A DNA stretch of 64,000 bases from Rhodopirellula sp. P2 (GTDB taxonomy: Bacteria > Planctomycetota > Planctomycetia > Pirellulales > Pirellulaceae), in the NCBI RefSeq assembly GCF_028768465.1, contig NZ_CP118225.1, forward strand, positions 6,615,001 through 6,679,000. Reading direction: 5' to 3'. A program made the translations under genes and the position numbers. Below, in pieces: positions 262 to 13,360 of this stretch (position 1 is its first letter; every line of letters starts with the position of its first letter). The notes under the pieces were generated by a model, which was given only the letters and a program-made list of their open reading frames with translations, was not told the DNA's origin and made no database searches.

Positions 262-2127
262 GTGGCTATCGAGGCAGACATGATCACCGACGATTCCGTT
301 GCCGTGCGTCGTCCCCGACGATGGGACGAACCGATGGACCCGCATATGACCGATGCGGATGTGGGATGGCTGCGCGAACAATCGCCTTTTTCAGGCTTGG
401 ATCCGGCCGCGTTCCCCAAGTCGATTCCGCTGGACGGGATCCTCCGCAATGATTGCCGACTGCACCGTTTCGCTCACGGTGAAGTGATCGCTCGCGAAGG
501 GGACTACGCCAACAGTGCTTTCTTGGTCGTTGATGGTCACGCGGAACTTTTGACTCGCGAGTTGCCACCAGAACGATTGGGGCGGCGTGAAACCGAAAAA
601 GTGTCTTGGCCCAAAGCGGTCTGGCAACTGCTGCGTCCATCCGGCGTCCGGGAAGCTCGACGTCCCGAGGAAGTGGTCCCAAACGTCGAACTGCATTCCT
701 CCTCGCATCACGCGGAAGATCGTCCCCCTGTCCTGCAGCTGCAAGATTTTGATGGGCTAGTGCAGGCCGGCCAAAGCGTGCGGTTGGGGCCGGGCGAATT
801 GTTCGGCGAAGTCGCGGCGATGTACCGAGCCCCTCGCTCCGCGACCGTTGTTTCGCAAGGCGACAGCACGTTGCTGGAGATTCGACTGCAGGGCCTGAAG
901 ATGCTGCGTCGCGATCCCGCGTTCTCGCAGCGCATGGACGATCACTATCGCGAGAATTGGTTGCCGATTCACCTGCGTGAAATTCCCTTGCTGCGGTTTC
1001 TTCCCGAGCAGAACTTGCAACGAGTGGTTGCGGCGACGGTCCAACGTTCATTCGGTCGATTGGAATGGAACGCGGACTACAAGAAGACTCGCAAGCTGTC
1101 TCCGGCCGAGCAGATTGAAAGCGAACCGGTGGTGGCCACCGAAGGGCACCATGTCACCGATTTGATCATCGTTCGCAGCGGATTCGGCCGGGTATGCCAG
1201 AGCTACGGCGTGGCTCAACGGACCACCGCTTACCTCGGCAAAGGCCACCTGTTCGGGCTGGAAGAGATCGCGTTGGGAGTGACCAACGAAGACGGCCCCA
1301 TCAACTTGCCGCTGCAACATTCGCTTCGCGCGGTTGGGTTCCTGGACACGCTGCACATTCCAGTTGAGTGTTTCGCGACCGAGATCCTGCCGCACGTTCG
1401 CCGTAGCGAGCTGCCTGCTCCGGCCGCGAAAGCGTTGCTGCGAATGCCGGCGACGGAAGAAGCTCGCGAACGTCGCAGTGAAGAGCGCCCCAAGGTCGAA
1501 CTCCCGATCGTTTCGACTCCCTCGTCACACCACAACAGCGAAGACACCTGGCAGGATTTGCCCAGCCCCACGGGGACCTCGTTCGAACCCACGGGGTTGC
1601 TCGAGTTCATCGTTCAAAATCGTTTCAACAACGGTCGCGAAGCGATGATCATTGATTTACATCGCTGCACCCGTTGCGATGATTGCGTCAAAGCCTGCGC
1701 GAGCGTGCACGACGGAAATCCCCGCTTTGCTCGCGTCGGCGTGAATCACGATCGACTGCAATTCGTTCAAGCCTGCATGCACTGCACCGATCCCGTTTGC
1801 ATGATCGGTTGCCCGACAGGCGCTCTGCACCGCGAAGAATCCACCGGTCACGTTCGAGTTTCCGAATCGATTTGCATCGGCTGTGGAACGTGCGCCAAAG
1901 GGTGCCCGTACGGAAACATTGAAATGGAAGCGGTGAACGATCCGCAGGGTCGGCCCTACACCGACGAAGCCAGCAACCGCCCGATCACCAAAGCGACCAA
2001 GTGCGACATGTGCAGCGGTTTACCGACTGGTCCCGCTTGTGCCGCGGCGTGCCCGCATGATGCGATCGTGCGAATTGATTTGAGTGAGTCGCCGCCACTG
2101 GAAGATTGGCTGAGGAGACGAACATGA
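262..2127 (+). CDS. Dual cyclic-nucleotide-binding domain / four-cluster ferredoxin fusion protein
   Basis: Cytoplasmic-looking electron-transfer protein of 621 residues. Residues about 42-225 form a cNMP-binding fold with a canonical phosphate-binding cassette (GELFGE at 178-183, PRSATV at 191-196) and a loop insertion of about 50 residues. Residues about 240-385 look like a second, degenerate cNMP fold. Residues 460-605 form a DmsB/NrfC-type ferredoxin with four cysteine groups: C469/472/475/479, C505/508/513/517, C538/541/544/548 and C581/584/593/597. These should hold four [4Fe-4S] clusters. The listed start is GTG; the ATG at 280 is equally plausible. Its stop overlaps the next start by four bases (ATGA), so translation is probably coupled. 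Domain identities rest on motifs and are firm; the electron partner is inferred from the neighbours. Confidence 0.88.
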   Translation: MAIEADMITDDSVAVRRPRRWDEPMDPHMTDADVGWLREQSPFSGLDPAAFPKSIPLDGILRNDCRLHRFAHGEVIAREGDYANSAFLVVDGHAELLTRELPPERLGRRETEKVSWPKAVWQLLRPSGVREARRPEEVVPNVELHSSSHHAEDRPPVLQLQDFDGLVQAGQSVRLGPGELFGEVAAMYRAPRSATVVSQGDSTLLEIRLQGLKMLRRDPAFSQRMDDHYRENWLPIHLREIPLLRFLPEQNLQRVVAATVQRSFGRLEWNADYKKTRKLSPAEQIESEPVVATEGHHVTDLIIVRSGFGRVCQSYGVAQRTTAYLGKGHLFGLEEIALGVTNEDGPINLPLQHSLRAVGFLDTLHIPVECFATEILPHVRRSELPAPAAKALLRMPATEEARERRSEERPKVELPIVSTPSSHHNSEDTWQDLPSPTGTSFEPTGLLEFIVQNRFNNGREAMIIDLHRCTRCDDCVKACASVHDGNPRFARVGVNHDRLQFVQACMHCTDPVCMIGCPTGALHREESTGHVRVSESICIGCGTCAKGCPYGNIEMEAVNDPQGRPYTDEASNRPITKATKCDMCSGLPTGPACAAACPHDAIVRIDLSESPPLEDWLRRRT

Positions 2128-3062
2128 GCGTGGCTGAACGCCGCCGTTCCGCGTCCTCCCGACGCTGGCAACAACTTCGCACCGACGTGGTCTCCCGTTT
2201 TCGCAGCCGAGTGTTTGGCTCCGGCCGGGCTTGGTCATTTCGTCGTCGCCGGGTTGCGAGTTTGACCGTCGTCGCCATCGCGATTGCAGTGACGGCTTGG
2301 ATCTCGCAATCGCTGCACGCGGCTCTTTATCGCAGCAGTGTGATGACGGGATGGACGCTGCTGAGTTCGATTTTGATTTTGTTTGCGATCGGGATTCGAC
2401 GTCGAATCCCAATTCTGCCGCTGGGCACGATGAGCACCTGGACTCAAGTCCACATTTTCACGGGATTGTTCGCCTGCGGCGTGTTCGTGATGCATGTGCC
2501 CGCGATCGCGTCGGGACGATTGATCGCGGATGGTTGGTTGGAGGGAACGCTGAGCGCTCTGTTCATCGGCGTCAGCCTGTCAGGATTCTATGGCATTCTG
2601 GCGAGTCGTCGGCTGCCGGCTCGTTTGACCGCGATGGGCAGCCAACCACGCTACGACCAGATCGATTGGCACCGTGAACAATTGGCGGCACGCGCAACGC
2701 AGCGATTGGACAGTTTGACCAGCGTTGATTCTCAACGCGTCTTGGGCGAGTTTGACGATCAATACCTGCGTCGGTACCTCGAATCACCGCTTTCGTGGTC
2801 CCACCGTTTGTTCGCTCATTCGTTTCGACGTCGCCGTTTGGTGATCGGGTTGAAAGAGCTGCATCGATACTTGGAAGACGACGGCAAAGAAGTCGCGGAT
2901 GAGTTGGCTGGTTTGGTTCGCCGTCGCGATGAACTGGACACCCAGCACGCGCTTCAGTGGCGACTGCGAGCCTGGGTGGCGGTTCACGCCGTGATGTCGT
3001 TGGGGTTGGTGGCGCTGGCCATCATGCACACCATTCATGCATTGCAGTTTGTGGAATCATGA
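2124..3062 (+). CDS. Membrane protein, probable di-heme b-type cytochrome
   Basis: A 312-residue integral membrane protein. Hydrophobic segments lie at about 44-62, 74-92, 108-128, 140-160 and 284-307, and a charged cytoplasmic-looking region of about 110 residues lies between the fourth and fifth. Helix 3 carries H110 and H124, and the last helix carries H288 and H302. Both pairs are spaced 14 residues, as expected for two bis-His b hemes stacked across a membrane (known from cytochrome b proteins; the heme assignment here is inference). I do not recognise a named family. The gene starts with ATG inside the stop of the Fe-S gene and ends in an ATGA overlap with the decaheme gene, so the three proteins probably form one complex. 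Confidence 0.75.
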   Translation: MSVAERRRSASSRRWQQLRTDVVSRFRSRVFGSGRAWSFRRRRVASLTVVAIAIAVTAWISQSLHAALYRSSVMTGWTLLSSILILFAIGIRRRIPILPLGTMSTWTQVHIFTGLFACGVFVMHVPAIASGRLIADGWLEGTLSALFIGVSLSGFYGILASRRLPARLTAMGSQPRYDQIDWHREQLAARATQRLDSLTSVDSQRVLGEFDDQYLRRYLESPLSWSHRLFAHSFRRRRLVIGLKELHRYLEDDGKEVADELAGLVRRRDELDTQHALQWRLRAWVAVHAVMSLGLVALAIMHTIHALQFVES

Positions 3063-5341
3063 GACGCGACGACTTTCAACTGCCGACACCGCCACGGATC
3101 GAGCGTCCTGGGCACCCGTACTCCTGCGGTCGTTCACCGGGGTGCGATCGATGCCTGCAAGGCCCAAGCCTGACGGGCGAGTGTCCTTTCGCAAACAGCA
3201 ACGATCCGGAACACGAAGCGTGCCGTCCCCGGCGGACTTGGGCCGGTCGCCGTCGTCAATTCACGGCCGTGATGTTAGCGGTGCTGGCGATTGCGATGGT
3301 GATCCTGTTCGCGACTCGAATGACCCCCAAGGTGATCCAGCCCGGCAACCTGACAACCGCTCACTCGCAAATCTTGTCGGGTGAATTGGCTCAGGACCGA
3401 TGCGCGGCGTGCCACCAAAACGCGACCAGCAATGGTTGGCTGGCAGCGGCAGACGATTCGTCAGGCTCCGATTCAGCCGAAGGCAATGGATTCTTCAGCC
3501 TGGCCAGCTGGATCGGTGGCGGCGGACAACACGCCGACATGCCAACGGTGCCGATGACGGATTTGTGTCTGAATTGCCACGAGCAACAGATGCCGCGTCA
3601 GTCCGCGCGTTGGGCACACAACTTGTCACCTGAAATTCGTGATGAGCTGACCTTGGCTGCGATTGAAAAACGAGACGGCAAGGCATTTGATCTGGCAGCC
3701 AGCCTGAGTGACGCGAATCCTTCCGCCAACAGCGTGAAGGCTTCCGAGAACAGTTTGGCCATCCAAACGGTGAGCCGAACATCAGCGTTTCAAAACAACT
3801 TGGCGTGCAGCATTTGCCACCAAGAGCACCATGGCGCGGACGCGGACCTGGCCGCGATCACTGATTCACGTTGCCAAACCTGCCACGTCAATCAATTTGG
3901 TTCCTTCGCGGACTCGCACCCGGAATTTGGCCAGTGGCCTTACCAACCGACATCGAACATTCACTTCGATCACGGCCGCCACGCGAACATTCACTTTCCC
4001 AGCGAAGCAGAGAAGAACTCCAGCGATCCGTCAACGGGCAACCGCTTCGCGACGTTTGATTGCAAGACGTGTCACATCGGCCCAAGCTTTTCCAGTTTTG
4101 ACTTGGACTCCACCGATCCGGTGATGACCACGCTGCCTTACGAGATCGCGTGTGCCCCGTGTCATGATTCGTCCTTGCGAGTTCAGATTGCTGAGGGCCC
4201 ATCGCTGTTGCAATTGCCGACCCTGCCGGAAGACATCGCCGCACAAGTCAACCAGTGGCCGGAACTGGCGACGGGATTTGCTGACGGCCGTGTCGACGGT
4301 TGGATGGCGTTGATGTTGCGAACCGAAACCAGCGAATCAGCACTGCATCGTTTCCAACGAGTGGAAGCGGCCAACTGGGATTCGCCAATCGTTCAAGTCG
4401 AGGCGGTGTCGCTCGCCAAAGCCATCCGCAAGCTCTCTCAAGAACTGGCCACCTCCGGCCAAGACGCGTTGATGCAGCGTTTGATGGACGCCGGCGTGGA
4501 CGAGCGAACCGCTCAACCACTGGTCGAATCCTTCCCACCGCAACTCATCCGCGATGCGATGGGAGTTTGGTTTGGAGGCGTTCAACCGATTACCGCGACG
4601 GCGTCCGAGGCAGCCCCGGTTGCCGACTCAGGCTTCGGATTGCTGGACGATGAACTGGGAAAAGGCACGGCCGACCTGGATCCGTTGCTCGACGTTGATC
4701 CCTTGCTTTCCAATGACCCGTTGCTGGCGGATGATCCGTTGGCTGCTTGGGGAACCGCGGATGAGAGCGACACGGTGCCTGCCAAGATGGATTGGGCAGC
4801 GGAATTGGCCGCTCGATACGATGCGGCCAAGACACAATCGTTCGGCGGTTGGTACCGCGACGACTTGACCATGTCGATTCGGTACCGAGGCAAAGGTCAC
4901 TCCGACGCGGTGATGCGATCGATGATTGAAATCATCCAGCGTCTGCCAGGGGACGATCCGCTCAGGGAAACCATGTTGGCGCAGCCCGCTGTCCAAGCCT
5001 GTGTGGCGTGCCATCAAGTGAATTCGAATCCCGGATCGGAGCCAGCCTTGGCAAGCATGCGTTGGCGAGCTTTCCAAGCGAAGTCCGACGGAGACCGGCT
5101 GACCCATTTCTCGCACACGCCGCACTTGAACATTCAGGGACTGCAAGACTGCCAGCACTGTCACCAATTGGGCACGACCAATCCGGCCAATGCGGTGCAC
5201 ATGGAAGGCGAATCGCCGGTGGAATTGTCGCCGGAGTTTTTACCGATGACCAAAGCCAACTGTGCCAGCTGTCACACCAAGTCCGCAGCGGGGGATCACT
5301 GCACACGGTGCCATCGCTATCATGTGCATGATGTCCCATGA
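3059..5341 (+). CDS. Membrane-anchored decaheme cytochrome c
   Basis: A 760-residue protein with ten CXXCH heme c motifs: CAACH, CLNCH, CSICH, CQTCH, CKTCH, CAPCH, CVACH, CQHCH, CASCH and CTRCH. Six lie in the first half and four near the C-terminus. The middle, about 380-640, is heme-free and includes a D-P-L-L-rich acidic stretch. A single membrane segment at about 68-87 anchors the heme domain outside the cytoplasm. The 60 residues before it contain five cysteines (C23, C29, C32, C42, C55) that do not fit heme motifs and may bind a metal or cluster. The chosen start is the ATG that overlaps the upstream stop. It would accept electrons from the di-heme b protein. The multiheme identity is certain; the direction of electron flow is unknown. 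Confidence 0.92.
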   Translation: MRRDDFQLPTPPRIERPGHPYSCGRSPGCDRCLQGPSLTGECPFANSNDPEHEACRPRRTWAGRRRQFTAVMLAVLAIAMVILFATRMTPKVIQPGNLTTAHSQILSGELAQDRCAACHQNATSNGWLAAADDSSGSDSAEGNGFFSLASWIGGGGQHADMPTVPMTDLCLNCHEQQMPRQSARWAHNLSPEIRDELTLAAIEKRDGKAFDLAASLSDANPSANSVKASENSLAIQTVSRTSAFQNNLACSICHQEHHGADADLAAITDSRCQTCHVNQFGSFADSHPEFGQWPYQPTSNIHFDHGRHANIHFPSEAEKNSSDPSTGNRFATFDCKTCHIGPSFSSFDLDSTDPVMTTLPYEIACAPCHDSSLRVQIAEGPSLLQLPTLPEDIAAQVNQWPELATGFADGRVDGWMALMLRTETSESALHRFQRVEAANWDSPIVQVEAVSLAKAIRKLSQELATSGQDALMQRLMDAGVDERTAQPLVESFPPQLIRDAMGVWFGGVQPITATASEAAPVADSGFGLLDDELGKGTADLDPLLDVDPLLSNDPLLADDPLAAWGTADESDTVPAKMDWAAELAARYDAAKTQSFGGWYRDDLTMSIRYRGKGHSDAVMRSMIEIIQRLPGDDPLRETMLAQPAVQACVACHQVNSNPGSEPALASMRWRAFQAKSDGDRLTHFSHTPHLNIQGLQDCQHCHQLGTTNPANAVHMEGESPVELSPEFLPMTKANCASCHTKSAAGDHCTRCHRYHVHDVP

Positions 5342-6068
5342 TTTCCAACCGCCGTCTCCACGCACGAATCCGTTTGCCAGTCGCCACACGCGACCGGGTG
5401 CGATCCCGTTTCGTTTTGACCGGAACGAAGGCGGTTCGGACGAGCACTTCCAAAAAATCCTGGCCGGTCTGCGGCAACATCGCCTCGGTTTGATTGTTGG
5501 GAACCACGGGTCGGGCAAGTCAACGTTGCTGCATGGGATGGCGGAATCCCTGCAAGCCGAATTCCCCGGCGGGAAATGGATCCAGTTGACCGGTGAACCC
5601 GATCGATCACCGCTTCGCCGGTGTTCCAGCGTGCTGGCGAATGATCGTGCTGTCCGCGAGGTGCAGTCCACGGTTTCTGCCGGCGGGGTGTTGGTCGTCG
5701 ACGGAGCAGAACAATTGTCGCCCTGGGGCCGTTTTCAACTTCGACGTCGAGCCCAACGTGCGGGGCACGCTTGTTTGGTCACGGCCCACCGAGACCTGCG
5801 TGGCTTTCATGTGTTGCACCGAACCCAGGTGACCGCCAAGCTGATCGAAGACCTGCTGCAAGAATTGTTGCGGGAACACCCGGATGCTCACGAAAAATTG
5901 AGGCAGGCCCGCCAAGGAGGCTGGTCAGATTCGTTGGACGATGTCACCGACGTTCGCGAATTGTGGTCGCGACTTTATGATGTCGTGGGATTGCCAGCGG
6001 AGAAGTCTGAGTCAGGATGTTCCAGCAATCGTCTCGCCGCCCTTCCCGAAAACTGCCCCGACCACTGA
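5328..6068 (+). CDS. P-loop ATPase of the redox operon
   Basis: A protein of about 246 residues with a Walker A motif (VGNHGSGKST) near residue 55 and a Walker B-like strand (GGVLVVDGAEQL), resembling small AAA/ExeA-type ATPases. The C-terminal part is helical and charged. Starts at 5322, 5328 or 5331 are possible, and all lie inside the 3' end of the decaheme gene, so translation is probably coupled. No membrane segment or partner domain is visible. In this setting it could assist assembly or maturation of the redox complex, or act as a regulator; neither is shown by the sequence. The P-loop assignment is good, the role open. Confidence 0.72.
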   Translation: MMSHDFQPPSPRTNPFASRHTRPGAIPFRFDRNEGGSDEHFQKILAGLRQHRLGLIVGNHGSGKSTLLHGMAESLQAEFPGGKWIQLTGEPDRSPLRRCSSVLANDRAVREVQSTVSAGGVLVVDGAEQLSPWGRFQLRRRAQRAGHACLVTAHRDLRGFHVLHRTQVTAKLIEDLLQELLREHPDAHEKLRQARQGGWSDSLDDVTDVRELWSRLYDVVGLPAEKSESGCSSNRLAALPENCPDH

Positions 6069-6079
6069 GTTGATCCTTC

Positions 6080-6697
6080 ATGGCTGTTCGTTTGAACGTG
6101 ATCGTGCTGCGTCCCACCGGCGAGCATCGCCATTTCGACCCGGCCTGCGATGATGCCGTGGGGCAATTGCTCGGTCGGCCTGGTTTGGACCTGGTGTTGC
6201 TGGATCGGATTCCCGGGCCCGACGAATCGGGTACCGAACGGTTGGCGGTGGAATCCGTCGCGGGCGACGTTGCCTGTGTGGCTTGGACGGACGCCGACCA
6301 GGTCTCCGGACCACTGGGGTTGCTGGGCAAACGAGTCGCACGGGTGCCGCACCGCCGTGACGTGGACGCCGAACCGGTCCAAGCAGACGAACCAATCGCG
6401 AAGCTGTACCACTTTGACATGCGTCGCGAAGGAGCGTCGCAGACCATCTTGGCGGACCTGCAGGCCTTGCTGGCCACTCGTCAGACACCAACGTTTCAGA
6501 TTGGAGCGGGCGGTTCAGCGATGCCCAAGCGAGCGAGTGTGCCGGCGCCGCCCAAGCCCGATGTTGCACCGATTCAGAAGATCATTCCTTCTCCTACCAA
6601 GCCGTCGGCACCTGCTGTCGTGCCGCCTCCCTTGACTCCCAATCAATCCACGGACTTGGACGCGTTGGTGGATGAACTGGACGAGTTGGATCTTTGA
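6080..6697 (+). CDS. Hypothetical protein, last gene of the redox operon
   Basis: A 205-residue protein starting with ATG 11 bases after the ATPase stop. The first 145 residues look globular (alternating hydrophobic stretches such as LDLVLLDRIPG). Residues about 150-190 are Pro/Ala/Lys-rich and probably disordered, and the last 15 residues are acidic (LDALVDELDELDL). There is no signal peptide, membrane segment or known motif. The tight spacing makes it part of the operon. An acidic tail behind a flexible linker is often a docking element, but that is a guess. Confidence 0.7.
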   Translation: MAVRLNVIVLRPTGEHRHFDPACDDAVGQLLGRPGLDLVLLDRIPGPDESGTERLAVESVAGDVACVAWTDADQVSGPLGLLGKRVARVPHRRDVDAEPVQADEPIAKLYHFDMRREGASQTILADLQALLATRQTPTFQIGAGGSAMPKRASVPAPPKPDVAPIQKIIPSPTKPSAPAVVPPPLTPNQSTDLDALVDELDELDL

Positions 6698-11366: not shown

Positions 11367-11483
11367 CATTGAGCGGGAGTGGATCATCGCCCGACGCGTT
11401 CGTCTTCCAGTTTCAGTTCGCAGTTCAATTGTTGACCATCACGCAACTTCCCCCCGATTCCAAAGGGCGTGCAGTTGATCGAG

Positions 11484-11503
11484 CCCGCGTTTTGGCGGGT
11501 TTC
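11484..11503 (+). terminator. Possible rlmN terminator
   Basis: Stem cccgc (11484-11488) and gcggg (11495-11499) with a six-base loop, followed by tttctgcattt. It lies 118 bases after the rlmN stop. The stem is short and the T run is weak. Confidence 0.4.
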
Positions 11504-11993
11504 TGCATTTGAGAACCTCTCCCGAAACGAAGTTTGGGGAGAGCGATATACTAGGTCGAGCGACGCCGTTCAGGCGGACGCGAGGGTGAGGGCTGGGCAT
11601 CGGAAGCGGCGCGGATTGCCGTCCCCCGGAAATCTCGCTGAACGCTCGTTTTCCGACCCCTCCCGTTTTCGAGGTCGTGCACTTTTATTTCAGCCTCCCT
11701 TTGGGAGGGTCGGCCCGTTTCGGGCCGGGGAGGGTTACGCGCTGGTGCCGATGCTCGACCCTCCCCTCGCTTCGCTCGACCCTCCCAGGGGGAGGGTGAT
11801 GATAAACGCTTGGCAAGCACAGCATTTAAAAACTGCACGACCTCTTCGTCGGGCGGGGATCTTGAGCGACAAGTTGTGGAGGTTGGCCAGCGAATTCTCG
11901 CAATTGTGTTGACCCCTGTGGGCTGAATCGACTATTCCACGACCTTGGCGATGAACGCATCGCCATTTGTGTGTCAGTCATTCAATTCCAGGG
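11504..11993. repeat. Gene-free region with a GGGAGGGT-type repeat block
   Basis: About 490 bases without a supported gene. At 11515 starts cctctcccgaaacgaagt with ttggggagag, a hairpin element seen again at 12651. From about 11690 to 11800 lie paired cctccctttgggagggtcgg and ccctcccagggggagggtga units with gcttcgctcg between them. This is the inverse of the block at 15726-15860. The remainder to 11993 shows nothing further. Confidence 0.7.
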
Positions 11994-12632
11994 ATGGAAA
12001 ATATGTCCGTTTCAGTCATGCGGATCTTGGGTCGTTTTGCTCTTGGTTTCTCGGTCGCAGCCGCAACGCTTTCCATGACCGGTTGTGGTTCGTCCACCCC
12101 CGAATCAGTCGCCTCCCAATCCAGCACTGCCTCCCCAACCACCGCTGCTTCTGCGGACGAAGCTGAATCGGTTGTCGGTCAGTTTCTCGACCGAATTCGC
12201 CGTGGTGGCGCCGAAAACACCGCCATGACGCTGCTGACCAAGCGTGCTCAGTCGGAATTGGCTCGGATTGGACACGTCGTCCAACCGCTCGGTTCACCTG
12301 ACGCAGAAGTCACGATCACCCGCAGCGAAGAAGTCGGGATGGAACACCTTCCCGAAGGCCAGAAGTACCCCACGCGTTTGGTTCACTGCGTGTGGAGCGA
12401 GCCTTCCCAAGCCGATGGAACCAAACAAGAATTCCAAATTGTCCTGCCCGTCGTTCAACAAAGTGAAGGCTGGAGAATTTCGGGAATGGTCCTGGGGATC
12501 GCAACCGGCGAACCCGAGCTGATCTTGGACTTCGAAAACGGAGACGAAATGGCTCGCATCCTGAACGCTCAGGAACAAACCCAAACCGCCGCGGCCCCCG
12601 CTGCAACCGCCACCGAATCGATGCAGCGATAG
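11994..12632 (+). CDS. Predicted lipoprotein of unknown function
   Basis: A protein of about 212 residues. The N-terminus is a lipoprotein signal: basic start, hydrophobic FALGFSVAAATLSM, then the lipobox MTGC with Cys near residue 31. A Ser/Thr/Ala-rich linker follows, then a compact domain (about 55-190) that includes VVGQFLDRIRRGGAENTAM and ending in an Ala/Gln-rich tail. The domain resembles the small alpha/beta folds of SnoaL/NTF2-like type by pattern only. ATGs at 11994 and 12003 are both possible; both leave the lipobox intact. No operon partner. Confidence 0.75.
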   Translation: MENMSVSVMRILGRFALGFSVAAATLSMTGCGSSTPESVASQSSTASPTTAASADEAESVVGQFLDRIRRGGAENTAMTLLTKRAQSELARIGHVVQPLGSPDAEVTITRSEEVGMEHLPEGQKYPTRLVHCVWSEPSQADGTKQEFQIVLPVVQQSEGWRISGMVLGIATGEPELILDFENGDEMARILNAQEQTQTAAAPAATATESMQR

Positions 12633-12639
12633 TTCGTCC

Positions 12640-13360
12640 ATTTGCGTCCACCTCTCCCGAAACGAAGTTTGGGGAGAAGTGGAGCGAAGCGAGGGGAGCG
12701 GCTCCGCATTGGATCCAGCGCGTAACCCGCCCCGGCCCGAAGCGGTCCGACCCTCCCAAGAGGAGGGTGAAGGAAAACTGCACGACCTCCTTCGTCGGGC
12801 AGGGTTCTGACGGCGTCACTGGCACGGCAGTTAAGAACCGCAGGACCTCTGAATCCCGGGTGTCCCGCGAGACGTCTTTGGTTGGGAACGCCCTGTGGAA
12901 AATCCTCCGCCACGAAATCCGGCCTGAGGAAGATTCCACGCCATCTCTGAGTCTTGGCATTGTCCTCGGCAACCGGCTTCTAAGATGCCAGTCGCCCAGG
13001 CAAGCTCGCATTTCCCCGTGAAAACGCGAATCTGCGGGGCAGTCGACTGAATTCGCCCGGAAACCGTCGCCCCAATTTCGAGGGGCGAGCCTGGACCAGG
13101 ACTCCGAGTGGACGGCTCAAACCCACTCAGCAGAAGGAGTTTAGGTGCTTTGGGCAATTGACAACATTTACTAGCGAGCTACCGTAACGCAAAGTCACTG
13201 CAAGCGGTAATGTCACCGCACCTCCCCCCAAACCCCCTCTCATGGGCAAATTAGGGACGGAGTGTAAACGCAATTGATCAGGGTGACCGGATGCCACCTC
13301 AATTCAAGCGTGCGAACACGGATCGCACCGAAACCTCCGAACTTAACTCTGGAGAAACAC
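12640..13360. repeat. Repeat block followed by a featureless upstream region
   Basis: 12651-12790 is a second copy of the GGGAGGGT-type block (cctctcccgaaacgaagt, then gcgaagcgagggg, ccggcccgaagcgg and ccctcccaagaggagggt). From 12790 to 13340 I see no gene. The last 20 bases hold the strong ribosome-binding site tctggagaaac of the Cys-rich protein gene. Confidence 0.65.

Follow-up and report, generated by a model that had tools for sequence, protein, structure and literature searches.

Membrane redox complexes built from iron-sulfur (FeS) proteins, b-type cytochromes and multiheme c-type cytochromes are a known kind of system, and those of the Hmc, Tmc, Dsr and Cbc types use membrane subunits of the NrfD/PsrC or NarI type. 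The control of enzymes and channels by cyclic nucleotide-binding (CNB) domains is likewise established, and cyclic nucleotides control extracellular electron transfer at the level of transcription, e.g., via CRP in Shewanella. According to the available part of PMC6295460, CbcL, MtrH and MtoC join a diheme b part and a multiheme c part in one protein with mostly six helices and 3 to 23 CxxCH motifs, and their genes lie next to outer-membrane cytochrome and porin genes in some genomes. Here, we analyze the window, a stretch of 64,000 nucleotides (C1:6615001-6679000) in the 7.29-Mb single-contig genome of a marine, Rhodopirellula-like bacterium (G000), in which three overlapping genes (genes 1 to 3; 262-5341) are well supported as a conserved inner-membrane electron conduit composed of a CNB-bearing ferredoxin, a predicted diheme cytochrome b and an anchored decaheme cytochrome c.

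A first-pass annotation of this DNA had proposed a ligand-gated electron conduit encoded by five coupled genes. All five open reading frames (ORFs), on the plus strand like the features of these genes given below, lie with their motifs and overlaps where it had placed them (overlaps of 4, 4 and 14 bases between genes 1 to 4, and a gap of 11 bases between genes 4 and 5), and its reading of a trans-membrane conduit stands for the first three. The products of genes 1, 2 and 3 are called P0001, P0002 and P0003, and P0006 denotes an unlinked pentaheme protein introduced below.

The three subunits of the conduit

Gene 1 (262-2127) encodes a protein of 621 residues that combines two CNB domains (CNB-A and CNB-B) with a ferredoxin domain carrying four [4Fe-4S] sites and is best read as a cytoplasmic electron-entry subunit with a sensor, so that the proposed fusion of a sensor fold to the electron-entry subunit is borne out. 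It matches the Pfam family cNMP_binding (PF00027) with 67.7 bits (cut-off 27.5) and several Fer4 models above their cut-offs, and PF00027 is matched by all 34 members of the gene 1 set A2 at E<=0.001. The closest PDB entries to its AlphaFold2 model (pLDDT 79) are the tandem CNB domains of PKG and PKA (Foldseek E 5.5e-17), and its FeS half has PDB relatives in HycB3 and formate hydrogenlyase subunit 2. The ferredoxin domain (1657-2061) contains 16 cysteines (residues 469-597) that are kept in all 69 CNB-FeS sequences, the window protein included, and they make up the four [4Fe-4S] cysteine sets that define the four-cluster ferredoxin subunits of the HycB/DmsB/NrfC type; the NCBIfam models HmcB, DsrO and NrfC are listed for gene 1, every one of them below its cut-off. 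The nearest named relative belongs to R. europaea 6C (94%), and the genome holds one full-length copy besides two further matches that span only the FeS part. No helix-turn-helix family was matched in gene 1 (Pfam, E<=0.1), and a CRP/FNR-like transcription factor was ruled out on this ground.

The ligand-site signature of CNB-A (residues 181-195; 802-846) includes Glu183 and Arg192, the Glu and Arg of the phosphate-binding cassette, both of which are present in the window protein. Glu183 is invariant (69/69) and Arg192 is found in 61 of the 69 CNB-FeS sequences, in an alignment that omits eight loci without a match over CNB-A and all matches below 150 bits. In CNB domains, the known role of this Glu is to contact the ribose 2'-OH. 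Among 34 sequences, the sensor half retains only six invariant residues, three of which make up the FGE at the ligand site, with Phe181 varying when the set is widened to 69. Ligand binding at CNB-A is likely. The signature of CNB-B (approximately residues 260-378; 1039-1395) is degenerate in the window protein, as in most of the Planctomycetes examined and in Oceanospirillum, and it is retained in the proteins of Nevskiaceae and Rhodospirillaceae and in several distant planctomycetes, among them L082, L083 and L093. Of the first-pass description of gene 1, the two folds and the sixteen cluster cysteines therefore hold, but two ligand sites were too strong a claim.

Gene 2 (2124-3062) encodes a membrane protein of 312 residues in which five helices can be read from the model (pLDDT 91.7) and from hydrophobicity, and which is predicted to be a diheme cytochrome b. 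Its two histidine pairs, His110/His124 (2451-2495) and His288/His302 (2985-3029), each spaced by 14 residues, had been noticed before and are conserved without exception across the 37 sequences aligned, where they account for four of ten invariant columns. The charge distribution fits an N-terminus inside and a C-terminus outside, so that one histidine pair would lie on each side of the membrane, and two stacked b hemes are predicted, an arrangement taken from other diheme b proteins. PF01292 (cytochrome b561 / Ni_hydr_CYTB) reaches 14.8 bits on P0002 against a cut-off of 30.1. Among the 37 members of the cytochrome b set (A1), DUF4405 is matched by 21, Ferric_reduct by 10 and PF01292 by 8 at E<=0.1, with P0002 itself below cut-off, and no NrfD/PsrC-type match was obtained for P0002 or the families of A1 members at the same threshold. 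A known fold for gene 2 was dropped after empty Foldseek and PDB profile searches. These proteins may form a diheme b family that was not recognized before and that occurs in Planctomycetota, Pseudomonadota and Nitrospinota.

Gene 3 (3059-5341) encodes a decaheme cytochrome c of 760 residues with an N-terminal membrane anchor, in agreement with the earlier description; its ten CxxCH motifs compare with a maximum of one in 2000 shuffles. A search for PDB relatives of P0003 gave none (best E 0.3). Acidic DPL repeats (residues 541-565; 4679-4753) are shared with the pentaheme protein P0006. The N-terminus, predicted to be cytoplasmic, carries a cysteine motif, C..GP...G.C (3125-3223), a possible cytoplasmic binding site for a metal or cluster. 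This motif is doubled in L024, L026, L033, L035 and L038 and missing from the decahemes of L014-L016, L019, L020, L022, L027 and L030.

Conservation, modular variants and a possible outer-membrane partner

The first-pass annotation had considered that homologues of the fusion might mostly occur without the cytochrome genes, and the opposite was found. Of 43 loci obtained in one pattern-based scan of a species-genome collection, in which the cytochrome b was then sought by profile, 42 contain the cytochrome b and 35 an ORF with at least six CxxCH motifs, in the order FeS, b, c at the coordinates listed, which, as previously suggested, tracks the path from the cytoplasm to the outside. Eight loci have no ORF with at least six CxxCH motifs; L048 is a weak match and not an orthologue, L034 lies at a contig end, L031 keeps an ORF with four CxxCH motifs beside a broken FeS frame, and the remaining five (L023, L025, L037, L039 and L046) are taken up below. 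Matches to the cytochrome b profile come from 80 of 294 planctomycete genomes, and a CNB-FeS sequence, the cytochrome b and at least six CxxCH motifs are found together in 29/29 of the best further loci (the window's own excluded). As G408 is L033 and G414 is L031, the sets of loci and genomes used here overlap. Twenty more distant, hand-picked cytochrome b loci all have an ORF with at least six CxxCH motifs, and five of them have a CNB-FeS protein. On a tree of 88 cytochrome b sequences, in which some long branches are unsure, the CNB-FeS label changes six times, with four changes forced by well-supported branches.

Several relatives combine the subunits in ways that point to how electrons may enter. 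In two Oceanospirillum species, the FeS protein and the cytochrome b form a single ORF of 858 or 890 residues, and the CNB-FeS protein is fused to a pyridine-nucleotide reductase (Pyr_redox) in L041 (Nevskiaceae) and L137 (Sphingobium); L042 and L047 resemble these loci by eye. Among other planctomycetes, L083 has CNB-FeS fused to Fer2_4, which exceeds its cut-off, and to complex-I-type Fer4 models, which do not; L091 encodes an FHA-FNR-b fusion; and a Pyr_redox-Fer4-b protein adjoins a 23-heme protein (L101) or a 26-heme protein (L097). Since these input modules are of NAD(P)H-reductase families, electrons would enter from a cytoplasmic reductant.

L094-L097 and L101, from other Planctomycetota, have long ORFs with the cytochrome b at one end beside cytochromes c of 23 to 26 hemes, among which Fer4 and Pyr_redox are Pfam-confirmed in L097 and L101 only. 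An FHA domain stands at the N-terminus of the multiheme c of L041 (12198-13916, over cut-off) and of L093 (7206-9062), hinting at control by a phospho-signal, and the N-terminus of the L137 decaheme (11371-13167) has a sub-threshold Yop-YscD_cpl match.

Fuller clusters suggest where the electrons may go. The conduit clusters of Oceanospirillum, Adhaeretor and others add genes for an FNR-type reductase, a tetraheme c554-like protein, a barrel-like protein and a pentaheme protein, and loci of Parvularculaceae and Rhodospirillaceae have the latter three without FNR. Across 40 conduit regions searched by tblastn, with counts limited by the region ends, the FeS gene and the cytochrome b gene are each found in 40, the decaheme in 38, the tetraheme in 36, FNR in 31, the pentaheme in 24 and the barrel-like gene in 19. 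The window genome encodes its own pair of pentaheme (P0006; C1:2566018-2568126) and barrel-like protein at C1:2.564-2.568 Mb (L124:7825-11627), about 4 Mb from the conduit. P0006 carries a Cytochrome_C554 domain and is a weak relative of a cytochrome c552 with a solved structure (E 8e-6), and neither Pfam nor NCBIfam has a match for the barrel-like protein. Of 13 congeners, the 11 that have gene 1 also have gene 3 and P0006, and the two that lack it (G299 and G305) lack all three. In the order as a whole (196 genomes), gene 1 and P0006 each have strong matches in 39 genomes, 37 of which have both (Fisher 4e-35, uncorrected for kinship), using cut-offs set after seeing the lists (P0001 E<=1e-60, P0006 E<=1e-100) that drop 14 P0001 rows, all confined to the FeS end, and 15 P0006 rows. 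The two genes lie within 25 kb in 20 of the 37 genomes; of the other 17 pairs, 13 are on different contigs of multi-contig assemblies, one is 29 kb apart and three, the window genome included, are farther apart on one contig. Gene 1 occurs alone in G414 (L031, the decaying copy, without a pentaheme match at E<=1e-30) and in G483 (87% complete), and P0006 alone in G469 and G314.

Proposed cyclic-nucleotide control and its alternatives

Candidate genes of cyclic-nucleotide metabolism adjoin some conduits. Class III cyclase genes neighbour the clusters of L084, L128 and L129, those of L042 and L043 are separated from the FeS gene by about 4 kb, and cyclase matches were found in 18 of 40 conduit regions vs 0 of 38 control stretches (Fisher 7e-7). 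The controls came from the same genome set at offsets chosen by hand before the scan, some on the conduit's contig, with two each from G459, G069, G048, G152 and G107 and none from G487, G018, G176, G227, G164, G252 and G063; the queries were four conduit-side cyclases and three from the window genome, which favours conduit-type cyclases. All 18 positive regions belong to two families (f98, 13/20; f3, 5/6), within which the comparison is 18/26 vs 0/28 (Fisher 2e-8). No cyclase of the 18 is more than about 550 bp away from a match to a cluster gene, and most are transcribed divergently from the reductase or tetraheme gene (the L143 cyclase ORF overlaps FNR, and its start is unsure). In set A3, comprising 17 of these 18 positives (L143 left out) plus L084, L128, L129 and L042, all 21 proteins have the PF00211 catalytic domain (E<=0.01), four have FHA and two have GAF, and no CNB-cyclase fusion was seen among the proteins scanned. 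When plasmid records were searched at the protein level, the system turned up in 12 records of Sphingobium plasmids, and on the one plasmid inspected a CpdA-annotated, phosphodiesterase-like gene begins 16 bp downstream of the decaheme gene; its product is a metallophosphoesterase that stays under the curated NCBIfam cut-offs (SpdA 136 of 400, CpdA 94 of 225). The window genome itself has three class III cyclases. One of them (C1:3494885-3497008; PF00211 29.4 bits, cut-off 21.9) is about 30% identical over about 630 residues to the conduit-side cyclases of L162, L163, L170 and L171, with 257-272 bits compared to 58-69 for the other two, and it does not stand out against f98-type cyclases.

The explanation that best covers these observations, and to which we give an even chance of being right as a whole, is that electrons pass from a cytoplasmic reductant through the FeS protein, the diheme b and the decaheme c to an outer-membrane pair under cyclic-nucleotide control at CNB-A. 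Gene content, residue conservation, synteny, co-occurrence and the cyclase association are observed, and we infer the cofactors, heme loading, direction of flow, ligand identity and gating. In relatives with fuller clusters, a reductase with FAD, NAD and 2Fe-2S sites or a fused pyridine-nucleotide reductase would supply electrons from NAD(P)H; the four-cluster ferredoxin of gene 1 would hand them to gene 2, where they would cross the membrane on two stacked b hemes, one held by H110/H288 on the cytoplasmic side and one by H124/H302 on the periplasmic side. The decaheme c would then receive them and pass them to the pentaheme and barrel-like pair encoded about 4 Mb away, probably out of the cell. 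cAMP or cGMP from a class III cyclase, encoded at the cluster in some relatives, may bind CNB-A and shift the position of the ferredoxin half against the b subunit, altering docking or redox activity, and electron flow would thereby be switched post-translationally. The cyclase genes beside the conduit in some relatives suggest that the signal may switch the current, and the idea of a ligand is supported by the conservation of the ligand site, the cyclase count in conduit regions against controls and the phosphodiesterase-like neighbour in Sphingobium. The fuller proposal of a cyclic-nucleotide-gated conduit, in which a cognate cyclase provides the signal, CNB-A receives it and, on an unrecognized diheme b family, the current that runs from NAD(P)H to the exterior is turned on or off with no need for new protein synthesis, is tentative and has somewhat less than an even chance.

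A number of observations weigh against this explanation. No Pfam family reaches its cut-off on gene 2, the model has no PDB match at E<=0.001 (Foldseek), and the gene 2 profile reaches no better than E 0.048 against PDB sequences. Arg192 is replaced by His in seven and by Met in one of the 69 sequences. The five metagenome-assembled genome loci named above (L023, L025, L037, L039 and L046) have the cytochrome b and the FeS gene and no ORF with three or more CxxCH motifs, with the FeS sequence interrupted by a contig end in L037 and L039. Adjacency is not absolute, with FeS-b distances of 53 kb in G428 and 3.5 kb in G467; related genomes are not independent; and the b/c pair evidently occurs without the CNB protein, since 15 of the 20 distant loci show none. 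Cyclases were found in none of 14 conduit regions outside f98 and f3 (nor in 10 controls there), and no match to one was seen in 22 of the 40 conduit regions, in 41 of the 43 pattern-scan loci (several of which are short) or in L004/L005 around the window; at L084, the cyclase neighbours a conduit without a detected CNB protein. When the threshold for gene 1 and P0006 is relaxed to E<=1e-30, 38 genomes have both, 15 gene 1 only, 16 P0006 only and 127 neither (Fisher 5e-16). The 15 added P0006 rows are 34-44% identical and 11 of them belong to other genera of the same family that have no gene 1 match, so that distant pentaheme relatives occur without the conduit. The barrel assignment is based on a signal-like N-terminus and a terminal Phe, and a test for amphipathic strands was null (z=1.0).

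Some of these points feed directly into other explanations. The same electron path could be constitutive, with CNB domains that bind nothing and merely hold the ferredoxin or that bind another ligand such as a nucleoside. The degenerate CNB-B, the eight replacements of Arg192 and the failure to detect a CNB protein in most distant relatives fit this idea, as does the presence, among the Foldseek matches, of trypanosome PKA subunits titled cAMP-independent and, in one title, guanosine-bound. It is nevertheless somewhat unlikely, given that Glu183 is among the six residues that stay invariant in the sensor half and that cyclases and a phosphodiesterase-like gene adjoin some clusters. The diheme b might instead exchange electrons with menaquinol, as proposed for CbcL/MtrH/MtoC, with the ferredoxin half as a second entry or exit. 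Five loci (L084, L087, L088, L090 and L092) indeed have the cytochrome b and a multiheme c without a detected CNB-FeS protein or a Fer4 motif in the listed ORFs, and the matches of A1 members to DUF4405, Ferric_reduct and PF01292 are in line with such a complex, as is the description of the CbcL family as a quinol oxidase/quinone reductase in the available part of PMC6295460. The FeS-b and NAD(P)H-reductase fusions point to cytoplasmic entry, however, and make quinone coupling unlikely.

The logic could also run in reverse, such that the FeS half senses a back-up of electrons and alters cyclic-nucleotide binding or release, or the cyclase, with the cyclic nucleotide as the output. The observations are compatible with either direction of control, and the FHA (4/21) and GAF (2/21) domains of some cyclase neighbours and the FHA on the multiheme subunits of L041 and L093 would suit such signalling. 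CNB domains act as receivers in characterized proteins, though, and no protein scanned fuses a CNB domain to a cyclase, so we regard this reversal as very unlikely; a cyclic nucleotide acting on the conduit through CNB-A remains our preferred explanation.

Flanking genes and comparison with known systems

The first-pass annotation had counted genes 4 and 5 as parts of the conduit; both ORFs exist, but neither is now judged to belong to it. Gene 4 (5328-6068) encodes a P-loop ATPase of the nSTAND1 type (31.6 bits, cut-off 27.1) that is present in 13 of 13 congeners vs 11 of 13 for genes 1 and 3, and it is excluded because the two congeners without the conduit still have it; it lies downstream of the conduit on the same strand in nine of the 11 conduit-bearing congeners and on a different contig in the other two (G301 and G302). 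Gene 5 (6080-6697) encodes a protein without a Pfam match at E<=0.1 and is set aside by pairing alone, because it accompanies the ATPase in loci of the 43-locus set. The two genes stand divergently beside the conduit in L014, L015, L016, L020, L022, L027 and L030. Upstream of the window, several ORFs look transposase- or integrase-like by eye (L004:380-9731), and the upstream genes for a small membrane protein and a peptidase-like protein (L004) were set aside on position and sequence reading only.

The first-pass statement that no such complex had been described was too strong, since FeS/b/multiheme-c membrane complexes are a known kind. Like the Hmc, Tmc, Dsr and Cbc-type complexes, the conduit places an FeS protein, a membrane subunit and a multiheme c at the inner membrane, but it shows no match to an NrfD/PsrC-type subunit (E<=0.1) and carries CNB domains, which are not known from complexes of these types. 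The union of a b-type part with a multiheme c is described in the available part of PMC6295460, and compared to CbcL, MtrH and MtoC as presented there, the conduit shares a predicted diheme b-type membrane part with a multiheme c but encodes b and c by separate genes, has a b subunit that is read as five helices and lacks a Pfam match over cut-off, and adds the CNB-FeS protein. Porin-cytochrome (Pcc/Mtr) conduits of the outer membrane likewise have a barrel-like protein and a multiheme c as a conserved pair, whereas here the pentaheme carries a Cytochrome_C554 domain and the barrel-like protein matches no Pfam or NCBIfam family.

A CNB domain or cyclase joined to a multiheme conduit was not met in the literature searched (titles and abstract openings, with incomplete coverage), against which the union of an FeS/b/multiheme-c complex with CNB domains and a neighbouring cyclase is the new element. 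If the proposed control is real, it would give these Planctomycetes a defined route from the inner to the outer membrane and bioelectronics a switchable part, and a single ligand would make it possible to test what many multiheme gene clusters without annotation do. The sensor half resembles the regulatory subunits of PKA and PKG in its tandem CNB fold and its ligand-site Glu and mostly Arg, but its second site is degenerate and its fused effector is a ferredoxin rather than a kinase partner. With CRP/FNR factors it has the CNB domain in common, an FeS domain being fused here in place of a helix-turn-helix. Control by a second messenger that acts directly on the wire would be new in principle, and the conduit would then be to electrons what a cyclic-nucleotide-gated channel is to ions.

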